From NCBI RefSeq assembly GCF_002813775.1, contig NZ_CP020370.1, positions 1,827,501-1,891,500 on the forward strand: a stretch of 64,000 nt of DNA, given 5' to 3'. Position 1 is the first letter of the stretch; every line of letters starts with the position of its first letter. This DNA comes from Candidatus Thiodictyon syntrophicum (GTDB lineage: Bacteria; Pseudomonadota; Gammaproteobacteria; Chromatiales; Chromatiaceae). This document shows, in pieces, positions 45,816 through 64,000 of this stretch. The notes under the pieces are model-generated. The model searched no databases and was not told the DNA's origin. It worked only from the letters and a program-made list of their open reading frames with translations. Both the position numbers and the translations under genes were made by a program.

Positions 45816-48800
45816 TCAGTCCGGTTCTGGGCCGCGCGGTACCGGGCACTCGTCACTGCCGCCGCGCAACCGCCCATAGACCTGATCCAGCATCCAGTTC
45901 CGGAAGAAGGCACCCAGGGCCTCGTCCTGGAAGAGCGTGTTGATGAAATCGCCGTGTTTCTCGTGGCGGGTCACCAGCGCATCGTCCAGGGCCTCGCGGA
46001 ACGGGACCCCGAAGTTGCCCTTGTCATTGACGCGGGCGGCCTGTTGGAGTTCGGCATTGGCTACCAGTTGCGCAGTCACACCATCCACCAGGTCTTGGGC
46101 ATCGAAGTCGGTGCCGAAGCGCGTATTGATGACCTCGATGATGGTGGAGAGCCGCTCCTGCGGCGGCTTCGCGGTGCCGGTCCCGGTGTATTCGGGGCCC
46201 GGCAACTCGCCGGAGCCGCCGGCCTTCAGGGTCAGTTCGCCCTCGGCGTCCAGCTTCAGCTTGTAGGAGGCCAGCACCACATCGTCGCCCAAGTCCACCG
46301 GCGCACCGCCGGCGGGCGGCGGCAGCTTGCGCAGCAGCAGGCGGCCGAAGGTGTAGAGCTTCTCCAGGTCCGGGTCCGCAAAGGGCACGATCTGACCGAG
46401 AAAGGCATAGAGGTTCTTGAAGGCGTTGAGCTTGGCGCGGAAGGCCTCTTGGCGCTGCGTGCCTTCAGCATCCTTATCGTCTCTTTTCAGCGCCTTGAAG
46501 CGATCCACGGCCGGGTCTAACCAGGCGTTGAGCCTGGCATTGTCGGTGAGCTTCCGGTCGCCCTTGAATTTGAAGAGCACGGCCGCGAAGCCGTCCAGCT
46601 CCGAGGGCGTGTAGAGTTGGAACTCCCCCACTGCGTGCTGCAATTCGTACAGGCGCTGCGGGTCGACCTCATCCAGGGTCGTCGTCGTCTCGTAATAGTC
46701 CTGGAAGCTGGCCAGGATCGCATCGCGCTCGTTGACGAAGTCGAGTACGAAGGTCGCCTCCTTGCCCGGACAGGTGCGGTTGAGCCGTGAGAGTGTCTGC
46801 ACCGCCTGGATACCGTCCAGGCGCTTGTCCACATACATCGCGCACAGGAGCGGTTGGTCGAAGCCGGTCTGGTACTTGTTGGCGACGATGAGCACCTGAT
46901 AGACACTGGAGGCGAAGCGGGCGGGCAGTTCGGTCTCCTTGATGGACTTGCCGTCGCTGCCGCGGTTCATCTGCGGCTCGGTATAGGTGACACCCCTCAC
47001 CTGGTCGTCCTGAACCTCGCCGGAGAAGGCCACCAGACAGCGAATAGCGCTATAGCCCGGGTCCTTGCCTTTGTCGATCAGGTAGGCGTCGCAGGACTGC
47101 TTGTACTTCACCGCCATCAGCCGCGAACTGGTCACCAGCATCGCCTTGGCGCGGCCCTGGAGCTGGTGCATCACGCAGGCGCGAAAATGCTCCAGGATGA
47201 TCTGTGTCTTCTGCGCGATATTGGTCGGGTGCAGGCTGACGAAGCGGGCCAGTGCCACCGCGGCCTTCTTCTTGTCCAACACCGGGTCGCCCGCGACCTT
47301 CTTGGCGAGTTGGAAGAAGCGCTGGTAGGTCATGTAGCCCTTGAGCACGTCGAGGATGAAACCCTCCTCGATGGCCTGGCGCATGGAATAGAGGTGAAAG
47401 GGCGCGGGCCGGCCGTCCGGCCCCCGATGTCCGAACAGTTCCAGGGTCTTGTGCTTGGGCGTCGCCGTGAAGGCGAAGAAGCTCATGTTGGGCTGAGGCC
47501 CACGGAACAGGGCCGCGCGCAGCGCGAGCTGATCCGGCGCCGACAGGTCCTCACCTTCAGCCGCGAGCCTGGCGGCGAGCGCGCTGTCGGACAGCAATTC
47601 CTTGAGGGTGACCGCCATGTCGCCGGTCTGCGATGAATGGGCCTCATCGACGATGATGGCATAGCGCCGGTCCGGCAGGGCCTGAATCTTGTCCTGAATG
47701 AAGCCGAACTTGTGGATGGTGGAGATAATGATCGGCACCCCGGCGCTCAGGGCCCGGGCAAGTTGGGCGGAGTCGGTGTCGATCTTCTCCACGACACCGC
47801 TCTTGTGCTCGAATTGATAGACGGTATTCTGCAACTGCTGGTCGAGCACCTTGCGGTCGGTCAGCACCACGACCGCGTCATAGACCTTGCGATCCTGGTC
47901 GTCGTGCAGCGAGGCCAGCCGGTGGGCGACCCAGGCGATGGTGTTGGACTTGCCCGAGCCCGCCGAGTGCTGGGACAGGAAGTTCGTGCCGGCGCCCGTC
48001 TCCCTGGCCGCCGCCACCAGACGCCGCACGCAATCCCATTGGTGATAGCGCGGGAAGACCATCGTCTCCTTGACCGTTACCTGATCGGTGTCGGCGTCCT
48101 TCTCCTCCTCGGTCTGCAAATGCAGGAACCGCCCTACCAGATCCAACAGGTTGTCGCGCTGCCAGACTTCCTCCCACAGATAGCAACTGCGGTGCCTGCC
48201 CTCCACCGGCGGGTTGCCGGCGCCGCCGTCATGTCCGCGATTGAAGGGCAGAAAGCGGGTGGAGGACCCATTCAGGCGGGTGGTCATCCAGACCTCGTCC
48301 GCATCCAGGGCGAAGTGAACCAAGGCGCGGGCCTTGAAGCGGAACAGGGGTGCATGGGGGTCGCGGTCCTGCCGGTACTGCTGCTTGGCCGCCGTCGCCT
48401 GCTGGCCGGTCATCGCGTTCTTCAACTCGCCGGTGGCGATAGGCAGGCCGTTGACGAACAGCGCCAGGTCCAGTTCGTCGTCGGTCTTGGGGTCGTAGCG
48501 CAGTTGGCGCAACACGCGCAGGCGGTTCTGGTCGTACAGGTCCCAGACCTCTGGATTCAGGTTGTTGCCGGGTTTGAAGTACGCCAGGAGGATCTTCTGG
48601 CCATGGAACTTGAAGCCCCGGCGCAGCACCGACAGCAGGCCGAAGCTGTCCAGGGCCTTGCAAAGGGCTTCTATGAAGATGTCCGCAAGCGAGGCGCCGT
48701 GGATCGCCTGGAGCCTGGCCCAAGGCTTGGGCTGGGTGTCCGCGACGAAGGCGAGCACATCCGCCGGGATCAGCGCCCGCTGCGCGTCGAAGCCCGCGTG

Positions 48801-48917
48801 GATGGCCAGGGCCTCGTCCGGGTCGAACGCCGTCCGGTCGCGGGGCTCGTAGCCGCCGTGCAGTACCAGGTGCTCGACGATCAGGCGCTCGAAGGCGTCT
48901 TCGGTGTGGATTTTCAT
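45816..48917 (-). CDS. hsdR: Type I restriction enzyme R subunit (second, orphan)
   Basis: The protein has 1033 residues, the EcoR124/StySJI-like class. The nuclease motif is LDLALFVNGLPIATGELKNAMTGQ near 150-170 (D ... ELK). The motor has HSAGSGKSNT near 317, DEAH in IIVDEAHSSQTGDM near 421, FAFTATPKHKTLELFG, and SRLNRTCPGKE near 706. The helical C-terminal region is full length, so the gene itself looks intact. No hsdM or hsdS is adjacent: the next upstream gene is a truncated fic and then an IS66 element. Type I operons often read hsdM-(fic)-hsdS-hsdR or similar, so the partners seem to have been lost or moved. It is only distantly similar to the R subunit at 7679. Confidence 0.94.
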   Translation of the reverse strand: MKIHTEDAFERLIVEHLVLHGGYEPRDRTAFDPDEALAIHAGFDAQRALIPADVLAFVADTQPKPWARLQAIHGASLADIFIEALCKALDSFGLLSVLRRGFKFHGQKILLAYFKPGNNLNPEVWDLYDQNRLRVLRQLRYDPKTDDELDLALFVNGLPIATGELKNAMTGQQATAAKQQYRQDRDPHAPLFRFKARALVHFALDADEVWMTTRLNGSSTRFLPFNRGHDGGAGNPPVEGRHRSCYLWEEVWQRDNLLDLVGRFLHLQTEEEKDADTDQVTVKETMVFPRYHQWDCVRRLVAAARETGAGTNFLSQHSAGSGKSNTIAWVAHRLASLHDDQDRKVYDAVVVLTDRKVLDQQLQNTVYQFEHKSGVVEKIDTDSAQLARALSAGVPIIISTIHKFGFIQDKIQALPDRRYAIIVDEAHSSQTGDMAVTLKELLSDSALAARLAAEGEDLSAPDQLALRAALFRGPQPNMSFFAFTATPKHKTLELFGHRGPDGRPAPFHLYSMRQAIEEGFILDVLKGYMTYQRFFQLAKKVAGDPVLDKKKAAVALARFVSLHPTNIAQKTQIILEHFRACVMHQLQGRAKAMLVTSSRLMAVKYKQSCDAYLIDKGKDPGYSAIRCLVAFSGEVQDDQVRGVTYTEPQMNRGSDGKSIKETELPARFASSVYQVLIVANKYQTGFDQPLLCAMYVDKRLDGIQAVQTLSRLNRTCPGKEATFVLDFVNERDAILASFQDYYETTTTLDEVDPQRLYELQHAVGEFQLYTPSELDGFAAVLFKFKGDRKLTDNARLNAWLDPAVDRFKALKRDDKDAEGTQRQEAFRAKLNAFKNLYAFLGQIVPFADPDLEKLYTFGRLLLRKLPPPAGGAPVDLGDDVVLASYKLKLDAEGELTLKAGGSGELPGPEYTGTGTAKPPQERLSTIIEVINTRFGTDFDAQDLVDGVTAQLVANAELQQAARVNDKGNFGVPFREALDDALVTRHEKHGDFINTLFQDEALGAFFRNWMLDQVYGRLRGGSDECPVPRGPEPD

Positions 48918-49019: not shown

Positions 49020-49530
49020 TTACACTACCTTTCGCCCCTCCGCCAGGTTCATGAGATCCGCAAAGCACAGCCGCGCTGCGCGCCGGCCGCTACCCGGCTG
49101 GAGCACTCGAAGAATGCCGGCCTGCTGTAACTGCCGCAGCAGTCCCAGGGCCGTCGTGCGAGTGGGGATGCCGGAGCGTTCGCAAAAATCGCTGCTCAGG
49201 AAGATCGGCCGCGCAAAGATCGCGTCCAGGGCGTGGATCGCATACTGGGAGTGTGTGATCCCGACGATCCGGGCCTTCATGTCCTCGTACAGGCGCAGTA
49301 TGTCCTGAACCTTTGCCGCATTCTCGCGGGCCTGGGCCGTCACGGCCTCCAGGAAGAAACCGACCCAGCCCGACCAGTCGCCGTCGCGGGAGATCGCCCG
49401 CAGCCGCGCGTAGTAGGTCTCACGGTGGGACTCGAGATAGGCCGACAGATAGAACATCGGCTGGCTCAGCACACCGCACTGAGTCAGAAACAGCGGGATC
49501 AGCAGCCGTCCGATACGCCCGTTGCCGTCC
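49020..49530 (-). pseudogene. Fic-domain protein, 5' part removed at IS66 junction
   Basis: The frame continues upstream of the ATG at 49472 to base 49530, where the IS66 end begins. The first residues left are DGNGRIGRLLIPLFL, the second half of the Fic active motif HPFxDGNGR; the catalytic histidine and everything before it are gone. The remaining 170 residues match the C-terminal part of Fic proteins (LSQPMFYLSAYLESHRETYYARL, then a winged-helix tail). Fic proteins AMPylate targets and are common passengers of type I RM operons. The fragment has no obvious function. Reading continues into the IS as TVT then a stop. Confidence 0.88.
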
Positions 49531-49734
49531 GTAACCGTTTAGCCCCCCCTGGGTGCTGGGTGCCAAGGAGTCCCGGCGGGTCGCGGCGGCCTTGATCATA
49601 AATCCGGCCATCAGCCCTTGCGGCGGCCCGTCGCGGCCGGGAACCGCTCCGACGCCGTAGGAGCGACCCCGGCTGCGACGCGTGCCAGCCGCGGCCGGGC
49701 CGCAATTATGATCACGGCCGGTCGCGGCGATCGG

Positions 49735-51348
49735 TCAGATGGCAGGTAAGGGCAACGGCGGGGCCTGAAGCCCTTGGCGGCGCTGGCGGACTACCTCGGC
49801 CAGATACGGCCAGGGCGAGACGGCGCGTTTGCGACAGGTCTCGATGACGCTGGCCAGGTGGGCGAAGGCGCGGGTGCCCTGCGCGGTGCGGGTCCCCATG
49901 CCGATGCGGCGGGCGATGACCCAGTGGCGCAGGGCGCGCTCGGCTTCGTTGTTGGTCAACGGCAACTCCGGATGGTCGAGTACCACCCAGAAGGTGTCCC
50001 AGTCGTTGAACAACTCGCGCGCCAGCGCGCGCATCTTCTCATGCGGCGCATCGACCTGACGCAGGCACTCGTCGAGCAGGGCGTTGAGCATCCGCGCATG
50101 CCGTGCGCGCAACACCCCGACGGGGGGCGGGGCGCCGCGGGCGTCGTAAACGGCGGCCATCACCGTCGCGATGACCGTCAGGATCTCGCTGCCAAAGCGC
50201 TGGGCCGCCGGTTCCAAGCCATCTTCCAGCGCCTGGGCCTTGCGGATCAGGTGGGCCAGGCAGCGCAGCCGTTGGTCCAGGTCGCGATAGGCCCAGAAGC
50301 CGTCGCTCATCAACCAGCCGTTGAAGGTCTCGCCGAGCACCTGGCGCACGACCTCCACCGAGCGCTTGCCAACGACGAACAGCGTGGCGGTGGCACAGGT
50401 GAACACCCACAGCCACCGCAGCCGACCATGCTCCTTCCAACTGGTTTCATCGGCATAGCGCAGTTCGACATTGCGCACCGCCGCGTAGAGTTCCGCCTCG
50501 ACCACCGGGGCCACCGCCCGTCCGGCTTCGTGAAGGCACTGGTTGATGGTCGCGCTCGACAACTCCAGACCCAGCCAATCGGACAGAAACTCACGGACCC
50601 GCGCCCGCGACAACCGCATGCGCTGGCTCAAGGCGCAGATGAAGGACACTAGCAACGGTCCGGCCAAATGCCACTCGGTCAGGGCCACCGTCCACTCGAC
50701 CTCGCCCGCCGCGCGCCCCGGCTGCGCCTGCGTCCAGTGGCCGCAATCGCAGCAGCATTCAAAATAGATGTGCTTGGTCTGGCGCAGGAGCAGTCCGGTC
50801 GCGCCGGCACCGGGCTGGATCAGCTCGATTTCGTAGCGGGCGTTGTGTGCCCGCGCCACATGAGCATCCGTCAACGCCTGGCCGCACCCCGCACAGCAGG
50901 TTGGCCGGTGAGGCTGCTCGGCGTCCACCGGCAGGTGCTGGGTGCGGCTGTGCCCCGGGCTGCCCGGGCGCCGACCGGGGGGCTGGCCGGTGACCGTCCG
51001 GTGCGAGCCCTGACGGCGCGGCCGGGGCGCCGCCGGCCCCGCCGGCTCAGCGTCGCCGGGGGTGTCTGCCGCAGCGGCCCCGTCCTGCGACCCCGCGGGG
51101 ACGTCGGGCTGGCCAGCGGGCGTGTCCTGACCGCCCGTGCCCTCCCACGGCAGCCGCGTGCTCGGTGGCCGCGAACTGTTGGAGGGGTTCTGCCCCAGCC
51201 GCTCGCGCGCCGCCTTCAGGTCCGCCAGCGCCTTGCCCAACAGCACCCGCGCCTGCGCCGACGTGAGCGTCTGCAGGTAGGCGTCGTCGAATTGTCTGAG
51301 GTCGTGATCGCTCAGGTGCATGGCGGGGGCGTGGCGGCGCTGGCGCAC
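49735..51348 (-). CDS. IS66-family transposase
   Basis: The 537-residue protein has the IS66 layout. The N-terminal helical region has ARVLLGKALADLKAARERLGQNPSNSSRPPS. A zinc-finger region follows (PTCCAGCGQALTDAHVARAHNARYEIE and a CCCDCG cluster), then the DDE domain with YADETSWKEHGRLRWLWVF, LMSDGFWAYRDLDQRLRCLAHLIRKA and LPLTNNEAERALRHWVIARR. Start could be 51348 or the internal ATG at 51321. It looks intact, so the element may still move. The linker is rich in proline and glycine. Confidence 0.94.
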   Translation of the reverse strand: MRQRRHAPAMHLSDHDLRQFDDAYLQTLTSAQARVLLGKALADLKAARERLGQNPSNSSRPPSTRLPWEGTGGQDTPAGQPDVPAGSQDGAAAADTPGDAEPAGPAAPRPRRQGSHRTVTGQPPGRRPGSPGHSRTQHLPVDAEQPHRPTCCAGCGQALTDAHVARAHNARYEIELIQPGAGATGLLLRQTKHIYFECCCDCGHWTQAQPGRAAGEVEWTVALTEWHLAGPLLVSFICALSQRMRLSRARVREFLSDWLGLELSSATINQCLHEAGRAVAPVVEAELYAAVRNVELRYADETSWKEHGRLRWLWVFTCATATLFVVGKRSVEVVRQVLGETFNGWLMSDGFWAYRDLDQRLRCLAHLIRKAQALEDGLEPAAQRFGSEILTVIATVMAAVYDARGAPPPVGVLRARHARMLNALLDECLRQVDAPHEKMRALARELFNDWDTFWVVLDHPELPLTNNEAERALRHWVIARRIGMGTRTAQGTRAFAHLASVIETCRKRAVSPWPYLAEVVRQRRQGLQAPPLPLPAI

Positions 51349-51467
51349 TCTCGTATAGAAGCTTGGGCCATAGTTTGCCAGGACCGTCGAGCTTTGTCGC
51401 GTAGGCTTATGATCGTCGGCGAGGCATTCATCCGACTCCCGGCCATCCCGCTGGCCGCGCGGTCGCT

Positions 51468-51526
51468 GGTCCGCACAGCGGACCCTACGGGCGCGCAGCC
51501 TCCCCGTAGGGTCCGCTGTGCGGACC
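51468..51526. repeat. Family-C palindrome, copy C5, inside the IS66 element
   Basis: Arms 51468-51490 and 51504-51526 are perfect 23-base complements with the same GGTCCGCACAGCGGACC core as C1 and C3. Being inside the IS, it shows how such repeats could be carried around the genome. Confidence 0.88.
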
Positions 51527-51630
51527 GGGCGTGGCTGGCCGAAACTACGTCACGCCGTCCGCGAGGGGGCTAAGAACAGGGGGGGCTAAACGGTTACTCG
51601 CCACCTCGGTCCCGGCGATCCGTAGGCGGC

Positions 51631-54139
51631 GCTTCAATGAGGCCGCGGCGAATTCGCCGCGGAAACGGCATCAGTAGAGTCCTCGGCGGTCGTCATCATC
51701 GTCAGGCTTCAATGAGGCCGCGGCGAATTCGCCGCGGAAACTTCCATTGATCGCGTTCCAATTGCTCGCAATGGCCGGCTTCAATGAGGCCGCGGCGAAT
51801 TCGCCGCGGAAACACCAAGAAACCGAAAGCGAAACCCCGCGCCGAACTCGGCTTCAATGAGGCCGCGGCGAATTCGCCGCGGAAACCGGTGCGGTCGCAG
51901 GTATACCCGGATGGGCGGACGGGCTTCAATGAGGCCGCGGCGAATTCGCCGCGGAAACCACTCGCTGCCCCGCGTCCGCCCATGGTCTGTGCCCCGGCTT
52001 CAATGAGGCCGCGGCGAATTCGCCGCGGAAACACGCTCCGCCGCGCTCTGAAGCCCGGGGCGCCACTCGCTTCAATGAGGCCGCGGCGAATTCGCCGCGG
52101 AAACGCGAGACACCGCGGCAGGCCCTCAGGCGGATCGCCATAGCTTCAATGAGGCCGCGGCGAATTCGCCGCGGAAACCATGTCGCTCGAACTGCTCGCC
52201 GCCGCGAGTGGCAGCGCTTCAATGAGGCCGCGGCGAATTCGCCGCGGAAACCTTGAGACGATCCACGAACCACGACAGCGGTTCCCAAGCTTCAATGAGG
52301 CCGCGGCGAATTCGCCGCGGAAACCCAGGCGCTGGACCTGCTGACCGGATCGCCCCCGGCGCTTCAATGAGGCCGCGGCGAATTCGCCGCGGAAACGTCG
52401 TAGAGGGTCGGGGTGGAATCGTAGGGGACCCAGCTTCAATGAGGCCGCGGCGAATTCGCCGCGGAAACCGCATCGTTGTAGGCAACATAACAGCCAGCCG
52501 CGCCGCTTCAATGAGGCCGCGGCGAATTCGCCGCGGAAACCGCACCACGGTCCTGATCCGCCATGACGATGTGTTGGCTTCAATGAGGCCGCGGCGAATT
52601 CGCCGCGGAAACCTCGGAGAGATTGCGATGGTGTTGATGCTACAAGAGCTTCAATGAGGCCGCGGCGAATTCGCCGCGGAAACATCGCGGGCGGGTGACC
52701 TTCGTGTCTGCGCTGCCGAAGCTTCAATGAGGCCGCGGCGAATTCGCCGCGGAAACCGTCGAGCGCACGGCCGCCTACTATCTGTCAGGGGAAGCTTCAA
52801 TGAGGCCGCGGCGAATTCGCCGCGGAAACCGCTCGCGGCCAAGTGGCAGAAGACGATGTCGGTGGGGCTTCAATGAGGCCGCGGCGAATTCGCCGCGGAA
52901 ACGACACCCCCACCAGCCAGCGCGACCGCCTCAGCACCGCTTCAATGAGGCCGCGGCGAATTCGCCGCGGAAACGGTGCCCTCCGCGTCATCATCGGTCG
53001 ATGCCGAAACGCTTCAATGAGGCCGCGGCGAATTCGCCGCGGAAACCTCCTAGGAGGTCTTATGGCCCTCACCGACGCCGAAGCTTCAATGAGGCCGCGG
53101 CGAATTCGCCGCGGAAACCGCCGTCCTGGCAGTATCCCGGGCTGGCGCGGTTGCTGCTTCAATGAGGCCGCGGCGAATTCGCCGCGGAAACCCGAAGATT
53201 TTGATCAGCACAACGCCACCCCCAAGGCTTCAATGAGGCCGCGGCGAATTCGCCGCGGAAACGGCGCGGCGATAGCAGTTCTCCCGCGCCGATCATTATG
53301 CTTCAATGAGGCCGCGGCGAATTCGCCGCGGAAACCCAGTGCGGCTGCCAGTGGCCAGTCAGGCGCGCCGACGCTTCAATGAGGCCGCGGCGAATTCGCC
53401 GCGGAAACGCCGACCACACCCGCGGGCCGGGATCGAGCGGGAACGCTTCAATGAGGCCGCGGCGAATTCGCCGCGGAAACCCAGGACCTACCGATGCCAC
53501 GGCCACGGCCGCGGGCTCGCTTCAATGAGGCCGCGGCGAATTCGCCGCGGAAACCCGACGGCGCCGGCCAGGCCCCATTGGGCCCAGTCGGGCTTCAATG
53601 AGGCCGCGGCGAATTCGCCGCGGAAACCCTTCGAGGCGAAGGATTTCTCCTTCGGCTTCCAGGGCTTCAATGAGGCCGCGGCGAATTCGCCGCGGAAACA
53701 TCCGTCAGCGATAAGCATATGGCGGGCAAGCCGGCCGCTTCAATGAGGCCGCGGCGAATTCGCCGCGGAAACTCGAGGCGGTCGGCGGCGCGCAGACCGC
53801 GTGCGCCGTGGCTTCAATGAGGCCGCGGCGAATTCGCCGCGGAAACCTATGACGCGCTGGCGAGCATCCACGGCGAGCAGGCGGGGCTTCAATGAGGCCG
53901 CGGCGAATTCGCCGCGGAAACCGCCCGGTATCCACCAGATCCAGCAACATACTAACCGGCTTCAATGAGGCCGCGGCGAATTCGCCGCGGAAACTGGGCA
54001 AGAGCTATGACCGCCTGTGCCAACTCGCCGAGCTTCAATGAGGCCGCGGCGAATTCGCCGCGGAAACATTGCGCGAGACCAGATACCAGAACTGCCCCTC
54101 GCTGCTTCAATGAGGCCGCGGCGAATTCGCCGCGGAAAC
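51631..54139 (-). CRISPR. CRISPR array, left block (35 repeats)
   Basis: I count 35 repeats of 36 bases, starting at 51631 and ending at 54139, with spacers of about 35-39 bases (period 71-75). Each repeat has 5' GCTTCAATGAGG, the 20-base palindromic core CCGCGGCGAATTCGCCGCGG, and 3' AAAC. On the minus strand the repeat ends ATTGAAGC, close to the ATTGAAAC handle of type I and III crRNAs, so I infer transcription leftward with the leader beyond 64000. All repeats in this block look identical. The 33 bases between the IS66 end and the first repeat look like the remnant of a spacer. Confidence 0.97.
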
Positions 54140-54155
54140 GCGATCTCGCGGGAGG

Positions 54156-56114
54156 TAGGATGTTCAATCTGACCCAAAAAGGCGCTGAAAAGCCCATGCA
54201 AGAAGCGTGTTGCCGGGAAGGCCCGGCTGTCGGTTCTGTGCTCGGGTGGGTACGATGACGGTGCGACACTAGCTCATGCCCAGCCCTTGACAAACGGCGA
54301 ACGGTTGGCCAGCCTACTGGCGCGGTGATCTGACCGCCTTGCCGGAGCGCGCACGACGTGATGAACGCATTCAAGAGCCCAGTGAGCCGTCTGGCCAACC
54401 TGTTCCAGCGGTCACGTGATGCCTGGAAGGCGAAAGCGTTGGAGCGGCAGCAGCGCCTGCGGGCCGCGGAGGTCAAGATTCGGGATCTGGAGCACAGCCG
54501 CGCGCAGTGGAAGGCGCGTGCGCTAAAGGCGGAGCGTGGGCGAACGGGCGCCGAAGAGGCCGCGGCGCCGGCGGCTGACGAACCAGTGGATGAGCCACCA
54601 CAGCTTGCGCTGTCCCCGCCGGTCGGCCATCACTATTCGGTCATGGTCATGCAGTTGACCATGCGGCTGTATCTGCACGCGGGGCTTGGCAGTCGCGGCG
54701 TGGCGCGGGTCTTGAATCTGTTCGGCGCGACATTCCCGGTGGCGGCGCCAGCCCACACCACGGTGCTGAACTGGATCTATCGCTGCGGTCTCGCGATCCT
54801 CAATCGCCAACCGGAATGGCGCACGGATTGGATCTACGTCGCTGATCATACCATCGCCTTGGGGGCATCCAAGTGCCTGGTAATCCTGGGTATTCCGGTG
54901 AATGCACTGGCTCGGAGCGGTTACAGTCCGGGTCACGGCGCCATGCAGGTGCTGGCCGTGGAGATCACCACACACAGCACGGGGGCGTGGGTCGCGAACG
55001 TGCTCAGGCGCGTTGCGCAACGCACCGGTCCCCCGGTCCAGATCGTTGCCGACCACGGCAGCGACCTGCGCAAGGGCATCGCCTTGTTTCAGGAGCACGC
55101 CACTGCCTGCGTCTATACTTATGATATTTCTCATCTGATCGCGACGCTGCTCAAGGCCGAGATGGGCCGGGACGCGCGCTGGGAGTCCTTGCTGGCGCAC
55201 TGTCGCAACGCCTGGTCAGCCTTGCAGCAGACCGATCTGGCCTTCTTGCTGCCGCCTCGGCAGCGCCTCAAGGCGCGTTTCATGAATCTGGATGTCCAGG
55301 TGCGGTGGGCACAACGGCTCCTCGCCTACCATGATCGCGGCGACTTCAGCGCGATCCGCGCGCAATACGTCCTGAAGTGGCCGGCATGGGAGCACCTGTG
55401 CGCGCGGTTCGGCGCCGCCCGGGCGCACCCATTGCGGGCCATCGTCGGCATTCGCTATCCCGACCGGGCGGCTTTTTGCCAGGCACTGCAGACACACTCA
55501 GACCTCGAGAGTGATACGCTCGACGATGTGTTCTGGCAGCAAGCGGACGCTGGGTACAGCCGCTTCCTTGACGGCTTTGCCTGGCTACTGTCCTACCGGG
55601 ATGACCTGGTGGATTACGCGCAAATGATGGCGCAATCCAAGCTGATTCAGTCGCACCTCAAATCCAAGGGCCTCCAGCGGGGCTCCCAGGAATCACTCCA
55701 GGCCACGCTGCCACCGCAGTCAACGCTCACCCCACGCACGGCGGCCTTTACCCAACAGATGCTCGCGAAGGTGGCAGTGGAAGCCGCCAAGATCCCGACT
55801 GATAATGTCTGGCTGGCATCCTCCGATATCATCGAATCGGTCTTCGGGAAATACAAATGCTTCACCGCCAGGGGGCCACTCAAGGAGATCGGCAAGCTGC
55901 TGCTTGCGATTCCTGCCTTCATCGCCGACCTGGCGACTCCGTTGATTCGGGAGGCGATGGAATCGGTGCGTACGATTGATGTCGAGCACTGGGCGCAAGC
56001 GCATATCGGTGCGTCGATGCTGGCCCGGCGTCGGCATGCTCTCATTGATTCGTTATCAAACACTAAAACTGTATGAAGATAATTTGTGAAATAGGTCCGA
56101 TATTGAACACCCTA
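54156..56114 (+). mobile_element. Insertion sequence inside a CRISPR spacer, with 9-bp target duplication
   Basis: The element is 1959 bases. Its ends are imperfect inverted repeats: TAGGATGTTCAATCT (54156) and, on the other strand, TAGGGTGTTCAATAT (from 56114), 13 of 15 matching. It is flanked by CGCGGGAGG at 54147-54155 and 56115-56123. Removing the element and one copy gives a 38-base spacer (54140-54155 plus 56124-56145), the normal length. One transposase gene fills it. Family not assigned with confidence. Confidence 0.92.
54358..56076 (+). CDS. DDE-type transposase, family unassigned
   Basis: The protein has 572 residues. The N-terminus is a basic coiled coil (RDAWKAKALERQQRLRAAEVKIRDLEHSRAQWKARAL), followed by an HTH-like region (MRLYLHAGLGSRGVARVLNLFGATFPVAAPAHTTVLNWI). 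Candidate DDE residues are D in IYVADHTIALG, D in QIVADHGSDLRKGI and E in SSDIIESVFGKYK. The C-terminus is helical. It fills an element with a 9-base duplication. I do not recognise the IS family; IS66 and ISLre2 were considered and neither fits well. It appears intact. Confidence 0.85.
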   Translation: MMNAFKSPVSRLANLFQRSRDAWKAKALERQQRLRAAEVKIRDLEHSRAQWKARALKAERGRTGAEEAAAPAADEPVDEPPQLALSPPVGHHYSVMVMQLTMRLYLHAGLGSRGVARVLNLFGATFPVAAPAHTTVLNWIYRCGLAILNRQPEWRTDWIYVADHTIALGASKCLVILGIPVNALARSGYSPGHGAMQVLAVEITTHSTGAWVANVLRRVAQRTGPPVQIVADHGSDLRKGIALFQEHATACVYTYDISHLIATLLKAEMGRDARWESLLAHCRNAWSALQQTDLAFLLPPRQRLKARFMNLDVQVRWAQRLLAYHDRGDFSAIRAQYVLKWPAWEHLCARFGAARAHPLRAIVGIRYPDRAAFCQALQTHSDLESDTLDDVFWQQADAGYSRFLDGFAWLLSYRDDLVDYAQMMAQSKLIQSHLKSKGLQRGSQESLQATLPPQSTLTPRTAAFTQQMLAKVAVEAAKIPTDNVWLASSDIIESVFGKYKCFTARGPLKEIGKLLLAIPAFIADLATPLIREAMESVRTIDVEHWAQAHIGASMLARRRHALIDSLSNTKTV

Positions 56115-56145
56115 CGCGGGAGGTCATCGTGGGCGATGACGCGGA

Positions 56146-59100
56146 GCTTCAATGAGGCCGCGGCGAATTCGCCGCGGAAACAACCAACCACGCCGCAAAC
56201 GCCTGAGAGAACGTAAAGCTTCAATGAGGCCGCGGCGAATTCGCCGCGGAAACAGCCGAACTTCAAAAGCCGCGCACCAACGATAACCGGCTTCAATGAG
56301 GCCGCGGCGAATTCGCCGCGGAAACGCGCATCACGCCCACCGCCGTTGATTTGAGAGGGTCAGCTTCAATGAGGCCGCGGCGAATTCGCCGCGGAAACAT
56401 GCCAAGCATCCCCAGGTGCCCCATCTCCAATTCCGCGCTTCAATGAGGCCGCGGCGAATTCGCCGCGGAAACGTCGTTTTCTGTCGGTTTCAGATCCTTC
56501 TGTGTCCGGCTTCAATGAGGCCGCGGCGAATTCGCCGCGGAAACATGATGCAGGGCTGCAGGGTGTCCTGCATCGCCTCGCTTCAATGAGGCCGCGGCGA
56601 ATTCGCCGCGGAAACCGCATCGCCCGGTTGCGGTGTCTGGTCGATTGCGCCGGGCTTCAATGAGGCCGCGGCGAATTCGCCGCGGAAACTGCAGTGGGAT
56701 GGGCCGCCGCCCCGGTGGGCCGCATGCTTCAATGAGGCCGCGGCGAATTCGCCGCGGAAACGGCGCCGTTGCCGGTGGCATCGCCCTTGGCCCTGGCGCT
56801 TCAATGAGGCCGCGGCGAATTCGCCGCGGAAACGAGCCGGTACGCACAGACCTGTGGGGTCGGTGCGAGGCTTCAATGAGGCCGCGGCGAATTCGCCGCG
56901 GAAACCCGGACATCTGGACACCACTACCAGGCCAGCACCGGACGCTTCAATGAGGCCGCGGCGAATTCGCCGCGGAAACTTGCTCCCGCCGTGACCGCTC
57001 GCCCTGGACGACATCGCTTCAATGAGGCCGCGGCGAATTCGCCGCGGAAACCTGCCCGCCGGCACCATCATCCCTTTCGCCGGTGCGCTTCAATGAGGCC
57101 GCGGCGAATTCGCCGCGGAAACAAGAGCATCTGGGACTCGCTGACCGGCACCATCACGCTTCAATGAGGCCGCGGCGAATTCGCCGCGGAAACCGGAGGG
57201 CTCGACCGCCTGGGTCGCGGGCGCCGTCTGGCTTCAATGAGGCCGCGGCGAATTCGCCGCGGAAACCCGAGAAGCGCCAGATGCAAGACGGCATCCGGAT
57301 GCTGGCTTCAATGAGGCCGCGGCGAATTCGCCGCGGAAACGCGCCTCACACAGGGCCGCCAGCCCCGCATAGCCCCTGCTTCAATGAGGCCGCGGCGAAT
57401 TCGCCGCGGAAACGCCCGCGGCGTGCGCCGCCCGGTCCGCATCGGACATGCTTCAATGAGGCCGCGGCGAATTCGCCGCGGAAACCCAGCGCCATGCCCC
57501 GGCGTGTCATCGAGCCGAAGGTGCTTCAATGAGGCCGCGGCGAATTCGCCGCGGAAACGTGGGGCGACCTGACCGCCTTGAGCGACGGCATCGCGCTTCA
57601 ATGAGGCCGCGGCGAATTCGCCGCGGAAACGACCAAATAGTTGAAGTCGAATCAGCCTTTAATTCTTGCTTCAATGAGGCCGCGGCGAATTCGCCGCGGA
57701 AACGTGGGCACTGCGGCGGGCTACTTCGCGCCAAGCCGCGGCTTCAATGAGGCCGCGGCGAATTCGCCGCGGAAACACCCGACGGACACTCGCACGCACC
57801 CGGGACCCCCGACGCTTCAATGAGGCCGCGGCGAATTCGCCGCGGAAACCTTTGTGCAACAGCTCGTTGCACAAATTCCCTGGGGCCAGCTTCAATGAGG
57901 CCGCGGCGAATTCGCCGCGGAAACGACGCTGGGGGCGGCGCCGGTCGCCGCTCCGGGCGCGGCTTCAATGAGGCCGCGGCGAATTCGCCGCGGAAACGCG
58001 AAAGGCCGCGATCCTCGCCGGCCTGGCGGCCGGGGCTTCAATGAGGCCGCGGCGAATTCGCCGCGGAAACACCGGCTACGGCAAGACGACGGCGACCACC
58101 TGGTTCGTGCTTCAATGAGGCCGCGGCGAATTCGCCGCGGAAACCGGAATACACCGTCGAGGATCTCCTGGCAGCCCTGGAGCTTCAATGAGGCCGCGGC
58201 GAATTCGCCGCGGAAACAGCGACCTCGGTATAGAACACGTCTTCGCGTTTGACCGCTTCAATGAGGCCGCGGCGAATTCGCCGCGGAAACCGCAGGCGAC
58301 GCTGGACACCATCGCCGGCTGCTACCGGGCTTCAATGAGGCCGCGGCGAATTCGCCGCGGAAACGATCGCCACCCTCACCGAGCGGGCGGCCGTTGTCGG
58401 TGCTTCAATGAGGCCGCGGCGAATTCGCCGCGGAAACCGAGCCGCGCGAGTGGACGCGAGCGACGACCCGACCGGAGCTTCAATGAGGCCGCGGCGAATT
58501 CGCCGCGGAAACCACCCGCCCGGTCGACGGCCTCGCCAAGCTGCTGCTGCTTCAATGAGGCCGCGGCGAATTCGCCGCGGAAACCTGCGCGACCTGAGCA
58601 TTTACCGGGCGTTCAACGGGCGGCTTCAATGAGGCCGCGGCGAATTCGCCGCGGAAACATAAAGTGACTCGCGGTGCGTTGTGGGTCGGTATCGATGCTT
58701 CAATGAGGCCGCGGCGAATTCGCCGCGGAAACCGGCGGAGATGTCTTGACCCCACTGCATCAGGCTCATGAGCTTCAATGAGGCCGCGGCGAATTCGCCG
58801 CGGAAACCCGACCGCGCGTTCCGGCGGTCGCGCAAGAGCGGTGCTTCAATGAGGCCGCGGCGAATTCGCCGCGGAAACCTTGTCGTGTGAAGGTTTGCCC
58901 GGTTGGTTCGTCGTTGCTTCAATGAGGCCGCGGCGAATTCGCCGCGGAAACCTCAGAAAGCGCGGAATACTCAACGACCACACGAGCAGCTTCAATGAGG
59001 CCGCGGCGAATTCGCCGCGGAAACGCGGCAGGCGCGGATTGTTGTGACTAATCTCGCGCTTGCTTCAATGAGGCCGCGGCGAATTCGCCGCGGAAACTGG

Positions 59101-62100
59101 AGACGCTCACCGAATCACTGCTGCGCCGGGACGAGCTTCAATGAGGCCGCGGCGAATTCGCCGCGGAAACCGCGGGCTCTGCAGACTGCTGGAACTCACT
59201 GCGGTAGCTTCAATGAGGCCGCGGCGAATTCGCCGCGGAAACCGCTCAGCCAGTTGGCCGAAGCGCTCCGGCCGATCGAGCTTCAATGAGGCCGCGGCGA
59301 ATTCGCCGCGGAAACTGTTCAACGGGCGGCCGCCGCGAACACGGGGTTATCGCTTCAATGAGGCCGCGGCGAATTCGCCGCGGAAACGTGAACATGCGCC
59401 GCGCCGCCCGCTTTGGACGATGGCTTCAATGAGGCCGCGGCGAATTCGCCGCGGAAACGTGCTGATCATCGCCAAGGCCTACATAGAGGCCGGGGCTTCA
59501 ATGAGGCCGCGGCGAATTCGCCGCGGAAACCCCGCGCCAGTCCTCGAAATGCCCATGCTCCGAAAGCTTCAATGAGGCCGCGGCGAATTCGCCGCGGAAA
59601 CCTGTTACCTGGCGCTCGACCATGGGCTCTATTCGGGCGCTTCAATGAGGCCGCGGCGAATTCGCCGCGGAAACCTGCTGGCGCCAGCGGCCCCGGCCGA
59701 CCTGGCCGGCGCTTCAATGAGGCCGCGGCGAATTCGCCGCGGAAACGATGCCGGACCCCGACACCCTCCTGCAGCAGGCCGGGGGCTTCAATGAGGCCGC
59801 GGCGAATTCGCCGCGGAAACCTCAGCACGTCGTCGATCGTCAACGACGCCGTGCTGAAGCTTCAATGAGGCCGCGGCGAATTCGCCGCGGAAACGACCCA
59901 AGCCGGCCGGGCAACCTCTGTGAGGTCTTGCTTCAATGAGGCCGCGGCGAATTCGCCGCGGAAACGCCCCATCACCAGCGAGGACCCCACCCCATGACAG
60001 ACGCTTCAATGAGGCCGCGGCGAATTCGCCGCGGAAACCCGCGGAGAGAGCTTACCTCGACGGGCGCACGATCGCTTCAATGAGGCCGCGGCGAATTCGC
60101 CGCGGAAACCTACATGTACGTCTGGGCCGATGCCGAGGGCACCGACGCTTCAATGAGGCCGCGGTGAATTCGCCGCGGAAACACCCCGACGGGTTTGGAC
60201 TTGATCAGATAGCGCGCCAGGCTTCAATGAGGCCGCGGCGAATTCGCCGCGGAAACTACGCAACTACACAGGTACATCAATGACACAGGACGTAGCTTCA
60301 ATGAGGCCGCGGCGAATTCGCCGCGGAAACGATCCCGAATCTGCTGGTGCTCGGCCGGGGTGAGCGGGCTTCAATGAGGCCGCGGCGAATTCGCCGCGGA
60401 AACGCCCGCCCCACGGACCGGCAGCTACAAGGCCCGCTGGCTTCAATGAGGCCGCGGCGAATTCGCCGCGGAAACGCGGGTGTCGCTGTTGGAACACATG
60501 GCCCAAGAAGGGCTTCAATGAGGCCGCGGCGAATTCGCCGCGGAAACCAAGCAATTGGATGATACTACGGATGGAGGTTGGTTGGCTTCAATGAGGCCGC
60601 GGCGAATTCGCCGCGGAAACGAACTCGAAAGCTGGTTCGAGTAGTGGACCCCAAAGGCTTCAATGAGGCCGCGGCGAATTCGCCGCGGAAACCACAGCGG
60701 GGGCCGAAGGCGCGACCGCGCCGCGGCCCGCTTCAATGAGGCCGCGGCGAATTCGCCGCGGAAACGCCGGGGCGGGCGCGCAGGCGCTGGACGTCCTCGA
60801 TGGCTTCAATGAGGCCGCGGCGAATTCGCCGCGGAAACGACCGCCCGGCGGTCGACAGCGTCAACCGCTATGCGCAGCTTCAATGAGGCCGCGGCGAATT
60901 CGCCGCGGAAACACGAGCAACCGGAGGACATCATGTTGCTGAGGGGACAGCTTCAATGAGGCCGCGGCGAATTCGCCGCGGAAACGGTATGAAAAAGAGA
61001 TTGACCCAACGGGTATGGTTAGCTTCAATGAGGCCGCGGCGAATTCGCCGCGGAAACGTCCAGGCCGGGGCATCGCGAGCACCCTGGTTGTTCCCGCTTC
61101 AATGAGGCCGCGGCGAATTCGCCGCGGAAACAGTCATTTGGCGCCACACAGGCTGAGGCTTCGCACCTGCTTCAATGAGGCCGCGGCGAATTCGCCGCGG
61201 AAACACCGCATAGAGGATCGCGTCACGCCGCCCGCCATCGTGCTTCAATGAGGCCGCGGCGAATTCGCCGCGGAAACAGCGGCAATGCGCGTATGGCAAC
61301 ACGATAACAGCGCAGCTTCAATGAGGCCGCGGCGAATTCGCCGCGGAAACGCTTCCGGCCGCAAACGGACCCTTCACGACCGACCCCGGCTTCAATGAGG
61401 CCGCGGCGAATTCGCCGCGGAAACCCGCGGTCGGTTCGGTGGGCTCGCTGGGGTGCTGGCGCTTCAATGAGGCCGCGGCGAATTCGCCGCGGAAACAGTG
61501 GGGCCGGATGAACCTGTTACCTCGGGGGGCACGCTTCAATGAGGCCGCGGCGAATTCGCCGCGGAAACCTGTACACCGTCACCGGCTTGCCCAGGTCCGC
61601 CGGGTCGCTTCAATGAGGCCGCGGCGAATTTGCCGCGGAAACGACGACGCGCCCGGCACCGGACGCTTTGACGGCGAAGCTTCAATGAGGCCGCGGCGAA
61701 TTCGCCGCGGAAACCGCAGGGGCGGCGGGGGTACATAGTCGCCGCGGGTCCAGCTTCAATGAGGCCGCGGCGAATTCGCCGCGGAAACCATCCCCGACGC
61801 CCACACCCGCGGCCCGCCTTGCACGTGCTTCAATGAGGCCGCGGCGAATTCGCCGCGGAAACTCCGAGGGACATCCGCATCAACCTGTATTCCTGGGCCG
61901 CTTCAATGAGGCCGCGGCGAATTCGCCGCGGAAACAAGACCGATGCGGACGAACTCAAGCAGGTCAATGACAAGCTGCTTCAATGAGGCCGCGGCGAATT
62001 CGCCGCGGAAACAACGGCGCCAAATCCACCCGGGGCTAACCCCACCACCGCTTCAATGAGGCCGCGGCGAATTCGCCGCGGAAACGCGGCGCACAGGCTA

Positions 62101-64000
62101 CGCACAGGCTGCCTTTCCGCGGGCTTCAATGAGGCCGCGGCGAATTCGCCGCGGAAACACCTCGCGGCACGCCGCGGCCTCGCACAGTGACCCGGGCTTC
62201 AATGAGGCCGCGGCGAATTCGCCGCGGAAACAGCGCGACGACGCGGAGCCGATCCTGCCGCTGCTGGCGCTTCAATGAGGCCGCGGCGAATTCGCCGCGG
62301 AAACCTGCCACCTCCCAGGACCCGACGCCAGAGCCCGAGAGGGCTTCAATGAGGCCGCGGCGAATTCGCCGCGGAAACCGGCGAGCAGCGTCGCGTCCTC
62401 CATGTCCAACCCCTCGCTTCAATGAGGCCGCGGCGAATTCGCCGCGGAAACTGGGCTCTATTCGGGCCAAGTCAAGGGCTATTCGTTGCTTCAATGAGGC
62501 CGCGGCGAATTCGCCGCGGAAACGCGCTGGAACCGTGTGGAACTGATAGAGGAACCCGTCAGGCTTCAATGAGGCCGCGGCGAATTCGCCGCGGAAACGT
62601 CGTCAAGGCGCGTGATAGCGCCCCCGACACCGCGGGCTTCAATGAGGCCGCGGCGAATTCGCCGCGGAAACGGCGTCATGGCGCACGCGAAATGCGCGCG
62701 CCGAAATGGCTTCAATGAGGCCGCGGCGAATTCGCCGCGGAAACCTCGTAGACATGGGCGGGCTCCCATCCGGTATCGCTGCTTCAATGAGGCCGCGGCG
62801 AATTCGCCGCGGAAACCCCCGAGCCCCGCATAGCGCGCCATCAGTGCCCCCCCCGCTTCAATGAGGCCGCGGCGAATTCGCCGCGGAAACCAGGTAACCC
62901 CAGTCTTCGACGAAGCCAGCGGGAAGGCTTCAATGAGGCCGCGGCGAATTCGCCGCGGAAACTCCAAATGGTCTGGGACAGCGGCGACGAGAGCTTCGAG
63001 CTTCAATGAGGCCGCGGCGAATTCGCCGCGGAAACAATTCAGGGTGGAAACAAGGTTGAGCAAATAGCGAGCTTCAATGAGGCCGCGGCGAATTCGCCGC
63101 GGAAACGGTCAGGGGTCATATCGAGGACCTTGTAGAGGTCATCGCTTCAATGAGGCCGCGGCGAATTCGCCGCGGAAACCGGAGCCCAGCGCCCCCGCCG
63201 GGGCGGGGCTCGATGAGCTTCAATGAGGCCGCGGCGAATTCGCCGCGGAAACTTGACGCTCAGCGGGACGGTGGGGGCGTTGGGGTCCGTGCTTCAATGA
63301 GGCCGCGGCGAATTCGCCGCGGAAACGGGGAGCAGACCGAGCTACCCCTCGACGACATCTCCGCTTCAATGAGGCCGCGGCGAATTCGCCGCGGAAACCA
63401 CCCCAAATCTATAGAGCGAGCACATGACCGACACGCTTCAATGAGGCCGCGGCGAATTCGCCGCGGAAACGCCCCTGACCAAGACCACGGAGACCCACGA
63501 TGCCGACGCTTCAATGAGGCCGCGGCGAATTCGCCGCGGAAACACGGACTTCTGAGCCGTCTATTCTGCACACGGCTCGGGCTTCAATGAGGCCGCGGCG
63601 AATTCGCCGCGGAAACGGCACCTGCGCTCGGCCAAGTCGCAACGCGAATCCGCGCTTCAATGAGGCCGCGGCGAATTCGCCGCGGAAACTGGCGACTGCG
63701 ACGTCCTGGGCGAAGGTGTACGCGGAGCTTCAATGAGGCCGCGGCGAATTCGCCGCGGAAACGAGTGGACGGCATGGGGCGGGGCCTTGATCGATGGGTT
63801 GCTTCAATGAGGCCGCGGCGAATTCGCCGCGGAAACCTCGATTGCGGGGCGCGCGCGCCACTGGGGGGCGCCGGTGCTTCAATGAGGCCGCGGCGAATTC
63901 GCCGCGGAAACCAGCGGAACAGCGCGCGGCGCAACGGCTTGCCAACTTGCTTCAATGAGGCCGCGGCGAATTCGCCGCGGAAACAGTGACCATTGGGGCG
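56146..64000 (-). CRISPR. CRISPR array, right block (108 repeats, runs off the window)
   Basis: By my count 108 further repeats begin at 56146 and the last full one is 63949-63984; 16 bases of the next spacer remain, so the array continues. With the left block this makes 143 repeats. Two repeats vary by a single C to T change inside the palindromic core: 60147-60182 (at 60165) and 61607-61642 (at 61631). All others look identical. Spacers are 34-40 bases. Long open frames here are artefacts of the repeat having no stop codon in several frames. No cas gene is seen. Cas genes and leader would be expected to the right of the window if transcription is leftward as inferred. Confidence 0.97.

Follow-up and report, generated by a model that had tools for sequence, protein, structure and literature searches.

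Crossed flanks of two IS66-family copies point to an inversion that divided a CRISPR array and a restriction operon in Thiodictyon syntrophicum Cad16T

Inversions produced by recombination between inverted copies of an insertion sequence (IS) form a textbook class of chromosomal rearrangement. Insertion sequences are also known from CRISPR loci. In the Mycobacterium tuberculosis complex, IS6110 resides in the CRISPR (direct repeat) locus, and its presence within the array is linked to rearrangement of the array, mainly to deletions and local changes. Further, DeBoy et al. reportedly dealt in 2006 with large-scale inversions and CRISPR sequences in Thermotogales; judged by the title, the likeness to our case consists in large inversions in genomes that carry CRISPR arrays.

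The locus presented here has features of all these systems. With the textbook IS inversions it shares identical inverted copies, exchanged target duplications and near-symmetry about the terminus, but in Cad16T both breakpoints lie in defence loci, so that a CRISPR array and a restriction operon would have been severed together. As in the M. tuberculosis complex, an IS within a CRISPR array is tied to rearrangement; unlike there, the proposed event is an inversion of 3.2 Mb, after which some 100 repeats are left without a leader. IS-mediated inversions are of an already known kind, and a severed CRISPR array paired with the break of a restriction operon is an unusual and useful case of them.

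Strain Cad16T is a purple sulfur bacterium from a lake, and its genome has been published (PMC5944118). Among the CRISPR regions listed there, CRR1 (34 spacers), CRR2 (146 spacers) and CRR4 (98 spacers, no cas genes) appear as separate regions. The published CRR4 is the same array as the one discussed below, with the same number of spacers, the same repeat and no cas genes, whereas we regard it as the displaced old end of CRR1/CRR2, a relationship that the CRISPR section of that paper does not describe. The text of the paper assigns the lowest repeat count (19) to CRR4, while its table gives 19 spacers for CRR5 and 98 for CRR4; the count in the text is probably a slip. No description of a split among these regions was found in the open-licence literature on the strain, or in that on CRISPR arrays with IS or chromosomal inversions, as far as its accessible text goes, and a term search of the main text of the proteome paper on the strain (PMC6413534) gave no match.

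The stretch of chromosome that we analysed, 64,000 nucleotides in length, is referred to as the window. Its features are collected in Table 1, and positions are those of the window unless a prefix is given.

Table 1. Features of the window around the IS66-family element
Feature	Position	Strand	Remarks
hsdR, type I restriction subunit	45816..48917	-	open frame, 1,033 aa; now 3.2 Mb from hsdM/hsdS
fic 3' part, DGNGR of Fic motif onward	49020..49530	-	ORF as listed 49020-49472; relatives
Left 8-mer TGCCGTCC, half of fic target duplication	49523..49530		partner beside distant copy
IS66-family element	49531..51597	-	2,067 bp; identical to copy at C1:5075954-5078020; inverted ends and copy comparison
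Transposase ORF	49735..51348	-	537 aa; starts at first GTG (ATG a few codons in); ORF list and Pfam
Right 8-mer TCGCCACC, half of spacer target duplication	51598..51605		partner beside distant copy
Split-spacer remnant	51598..51630	-	33 nt including the 8-mer; other 13 nt beside distant copy
Leader-bearing part of type I-G array (CRR1 + CRR2)	51631..64000, on to C1:1894325	-	182 repeats in all
Second insertion element, in spacer between CRR1 and CRR2	54156..56114	+	1,959 bp; matched 9-bp duplication CGCGGGAGG

Two IS66 copies with crossed flanks

The element in the window ends in terminal inverted repeats of 16 bases that match exactly (GTAACCGTTTAGCCCC and its reverse complement); its transposase is of the IS66 type, with a match to PF03050 (DDE_Tnp_IS66; E 2.6e-34, 119.4 bits against a cut-off of 23.1). 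A target duplication of 8 bp is typical of the IS66 family, and such a duplication is present at six of the seven copies outside the crossed pair described below, the remaining one being 9 bp long. One subgroup of the family has three genes (tnpA, tnpB and tnpC). Here a single 537-aa reading frame occupies most of the 2,067 bp, and because a single-gene subgroup (ISBst12 type) exists as well, we do not place the element in the three-gene subgroup. As a separate observation, the non-coding ends of the element (window 49585-49721 and 51437-51545) have matches of about 77-97% identity at dozens of short sites scattered over the genome, as if the element carried palindromic dispersed repeats.

A search of the three contigs of the genome returned eight full-length, near-identical copies and one 92% relative, a 1,920-bp element with both ends. 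Six copies, namely that of the window, a distant one and four others, are identical across the full 2,067 bp. The distant copy (C1:5075954-5078020) lies 3.2 Mb apart on the same chromosome and on the opposite strand, with 0 mismatches to the window copy. Matched duplications flank all seven other full-length copies; they measure 8 bp in six, the 92% relative among them, and 9 bp in one, where the duplication was read by eye. Unequal flanks are thus confined to two of the nine, the window copy and the distant copy, and these flanks are crossed. The window copy is bordered by TGCCGTCC / TCGCCACC, the distant copy, if read in the same sense, by TCGCCACC / TGCCGTCC. For one given pair of copies, the probability that both crossed 8-mers match by chance is 4^-16, or about 2e-10. 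Both signs of an inversion between inverted IS copies, namely identical, oppositely oriented copies on one chromosome and exchanged target duplications, are therefore present. A simple insertion with a decayed duplication was also considered, and is ruled out by the exact match of the crossed 8-mers.

A preliminary description, made from the letters of the window alone, had stated that the element starts inside the Fic motif and ends 33 bases before the first CRISPR repeat, within what looked like a spacer remnant, and that its 8-base flanks are unequal. All of this holds. The left flank TGCCGTCC falls within the motif, of which the minus strand of the window retains DGNGR onward, the first repeat begins at 51631, and the inequality of the flanks stands out against the seven matched copies. 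The same description had proposed to look for the other half of fic and for repeats of the array next to further IS66 copies, and both were found at C1:5075954-5078020, on opposite sides of that copy.

The interrupted loci and their displaced parts

At the distant copy, the 5' part of fic adjoins one side of the element, and the match to the Fic family ends there; the 3' fragment in the window has no Pfam match by itself. If each duplication is counted once and a second IS copy within fic is omitted, our model predicts 252 bp from residue 134 of the 5' part to residue 1 of the 3' part. Relative fic loci, 31 in number, were gathered by a search with the 3' part alone. Both parts are present, in order and on the same strand, in 30 of them, with a spacing of 252 bp in 28 and of 255 bp in two. 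The second IS66 copy sits in the 5' part (C1:5073829-5075748, L035:5830-7749; 1,920 bp, with 92% identity in the matched part) and has its own matched duplication GGGCGGTT; fic has been struck twice by one IS family. Two more Fic-family matches, near C1:2083801 (L043) and C3:163555 (L044), each cover only a short part of the 93-position profile (66-90 and 71-93) and are possibly other broken fic genes.

Upstream of the 5' part of fic, the distant side carries hsdM, an Abi-like gene and hsdS, in that order; the Abi-like gene (L035:3356-4027) matches PF07751 (Abi_2) with E 5.5e-28. These genes are located at C1:5.07 Mb, and hsdR at C1:1.87 Mb. The reading frames of hsdM, hsdS and hsdR are all open, and the M, S and R subunits of a type I restriction-modification system are encoded (HsdM_N and N6_Mtase; Methylase_S; HSDR_N and helicase domains). 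They do not form the single cluster that is usual, not essential, for such systems. An hsdR match occurs in 34 of 116 genomes, and in all 12 relatives compared, chosen among the best-scoring of these 34, hsdM-hsdS-hsdR are contiguous, in that order and on one strand. No fic gene occurs in these 12 hsd loci. The 31 relative fic loci, many of them short, contain no match to hsdS or hsdR and weak hsdM-like matches in four, and hsdS-fic-hsdR in one piece was found in no relative among both sets of loci.

On its other side, the distant copy borders repeats of the same array, 99 regular ones and 1 lone in the 19.9-kb stretch covered. Exact repeats make up 97 of the 99 regular ones in CRR4 and 180 of the 182 on the window side. 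Rejoined across the two copies, the split spacer measures 38 nt (25+8+5), and the 278 intact spacers range from 34 to 41 nt. Only the window-side part has a neighbouring leader, cas2 and type I-G cas genes; they lie from C1:1894326 onwards. Assignment to type I-G (formerly I-U) follows from Cas3g, Cas8g2, Cas7g/Csb1, Csb2, Cas4g/Cas1g and Cas2, six ORFs above the NCBIfam cut-offs. Because leader and cas genes adjoin the window-side part and none are present at CRR4, CRR4 is the old end of the type I-G array CRR1/CRR2, leaderless and comprising its older third.

CRR1, CRR2 and CRR4 are one array of 280 spacers, two split spacers included; CRR1 and CRR2 are parted by a second insertion element, CRR1 and CRR4 by the inversion. 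The second element ends in TAGGATGTTCAAT / TAGGGTGTTCAAT and splits a spacer of 38 nt (7+9+22). Neither Pfam nor NCBIfam gave a match for its 572-aa ORF. In contrast to the IS66 junction, it is a simple insertion.

Beyond the old end of CRR4 (C1:5085200-5088445, L045:2201-5446) there are three lone repeats with 0, 2 and 3 mismatches, spaced by 1,554, 1,239 and 345 bp. The 1,554-bp piece is located between two perfect repeats, and its minus strand contains sequence of the phage virion-morphogenesis (PF05069) and PBECR2 nuclease-like kinds; the 1,239-bp piece contains a fragment of a phage head-morphogenesis gene on the plus strand. Neither piece has another copy in the genome, except for the repeats and a short dispersed sequence at the far end. 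They resemble the plasmid 'pseudo-spacer' SiL-E1 of about 2 kb in Sulfolobus islandicus LAL14/1, as it is presented in PMC3718332; alternatively, they may represent a prophage remnant inside the array.

Proposed inversion and its alternatives

We suggest the following course of events, the order of which we infer from the present arrangement. An IS66-family element would have inserted in two places, in fic of an operon hsdM - Abi-like gene - hsdS - fic - hsdR and in one of the roughly 280 spacers of a type I-G array, generating an 8-bp duplication in both cases. The two insertions, inverted relative to each other, would have lain on opposite chromosome arms. Homologous recombination between them would then have inverted the roughly 3.2 Mb in between, about half of the chromosome, with exchange of the duplications. 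As a result, hsdR would have been parted from hsdM and hsdS, and the array cut into the leader-bearing CRR2 + CRR1 and the leaderless CRR4. We put the probability of this model as a whole at about 0.87. Homologous recombination is its most likely route, preferred rather than proven. The inversion looks recent, because the two copies, like four more, have not diverged over 2,067 bp and nearly all repeats are exact on both sides.

Another way to the same structure is intramolecular replicative transposition in one step, in which the IS copy in fic attacked the spacer on the same chromosome and strand transfer itself produced the inversion and left a copy at both ends. Such transposition yields an inversion bordered by two element copies with crossed duplications, that is, the same flanks and the same scar, which here look no different from the products of recombination; the identity of the two copies fits it as well. 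Against it, the seven other full-length copies are simple and matched, which indicates that the element usually moves without rearrangement, and identical inverted 2-kb copies are good substrates for homologous recombination anyway. We therefore consider this route unlikely. Neither it, as a source of an equal scar, nor the second IS66 copy in fic had been part of the preliminary description.

The structure might also be an error of assembly, with both insertions simple in the cell and the wrong flanks joined across identical 2-kb copies. A misjoin of this kind would mimic crossed flanks, and six copies identical over 2,067 bp give occasion for it. It is, however, very improbable, because the library details given for the genome (10-kb PacBio, 200x; PMC5944118) imply a library longer than the element and because an independent later PacBio HiFi assembly is reported to have 'closely matched' and also to have five CRISPR arrays (PMC13116554). 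Finally, recombination with deletion of everything between two copies would likewise leave the window copy with unequal flanks, but it can be dismissed with near certainty, because the 5' part of fic, hsdM, hsdS and the array end adjoin an identical inverted copy with complementary flanks on the same chromosome. The preliminary description had proposed an exchange between IS66 copies in fic and in a spacer, with 'deletion or inversion' of the intervening DNA. The identical inverted copy with crossed 8-mers supports the exchange, and inversion stands where deletion falls: the pieces have moved and are still on the chromosome.

The position of the breakpoints is in agreement with the proposed inversion. 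The dnaA gene begins at chromosome base 1, and among 44 sampled stretches GC skew is positive in 19 of 23 up to 3.44 Mb and, from 3.59 Mb on, negative in 19 of 21. With one breakpoint 1,878 kb and the other 1,760 kb from dnaA, a 3.2-Mb inversion between them is near-symmetric about the terminus. Because about 7% of pairs on opposite arms would show such near-symmetry by chance, we count it as weak support.

Gene order in relatives, the comparison proposed in the preliminary description, bears out a part of the ancestral arrangement, namely the contiguity of hsdM, hsdS and hsdR (12/12); the full order, with hsdS-fic-hsdR and the chromosomal flanks, was not recovered. In eight genomes of the genus (13 stretches compared, matches below 250 bp dropped), the chromosomal sequences that flank the two halves do not lie side by side, and in one relative (G035) their neighbours are regions located at 3.15 and 0.68 Mb in the Cad16T genome. 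Because the outer flanks are rearranged in relatives too, the ancestral chromosome order is seen in no relative examined. In the closest relative (G107), the final 330 bp of hsdR lie beside the same downstream genes, and a different contig carries a partial hsdM and then hsdS, with no fic after hsdS. As regards shared spacers, the whole genome of this relative contains only 1 matching repeat.

Consequences for defence and transcription

New spacers are likely added only at the leader of CRR2, while CRR4 is likely frozen and dependent on read-through for its transcription. Restriction can likely continue after the split of the operon, because HsdR acts in trans, provided that hsdR is still transcribed. 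With the proposed inversion, an orphan CRISPR array is explained as a traceable break from a leader-bearing array, and not as a separate or decayed system. CRR4 can also serve as a natural test of what CRISPR memory needs, with about 98 spacers, near-intact repeats and all Cas proteins in the cell, and without a leader or nearby cas genes. Further, counts of arrays can mislead, since CRR1, CRR2 and CRR4 are a single array in three pieces. Exchanged target duplications offer a simple and general test for breaks at orphan arrays in other genomes.

The inversion placed genes of the two loci in codirectional units: hsdM-hsdS-fic 5' part-transposase-CRR4 (in crRNA direction) on the distant side, and leader-CRR2-CRR1-transposase-fic 3' part-hsdR on the window side. 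One may speculate, although we rather doubt it, that the tails of two defence operons were exchanged, so that about 98 old spacers would be kept alive by transcription from the restriction operon or the transposase and the CRISPR leader would drive hsdR. As part of the same idea, the identity of the two copies could allow the segment to flip back, and a culture could contain both orders. Scans for promoters and terminators in and around the element gave nothing above shuffled sequences. Between the transposase gene and CRR4 there is a very stable hairpin (z -6.35), which may hinder read-through into CRR4 and would then speak against such an exchange of operon tails.
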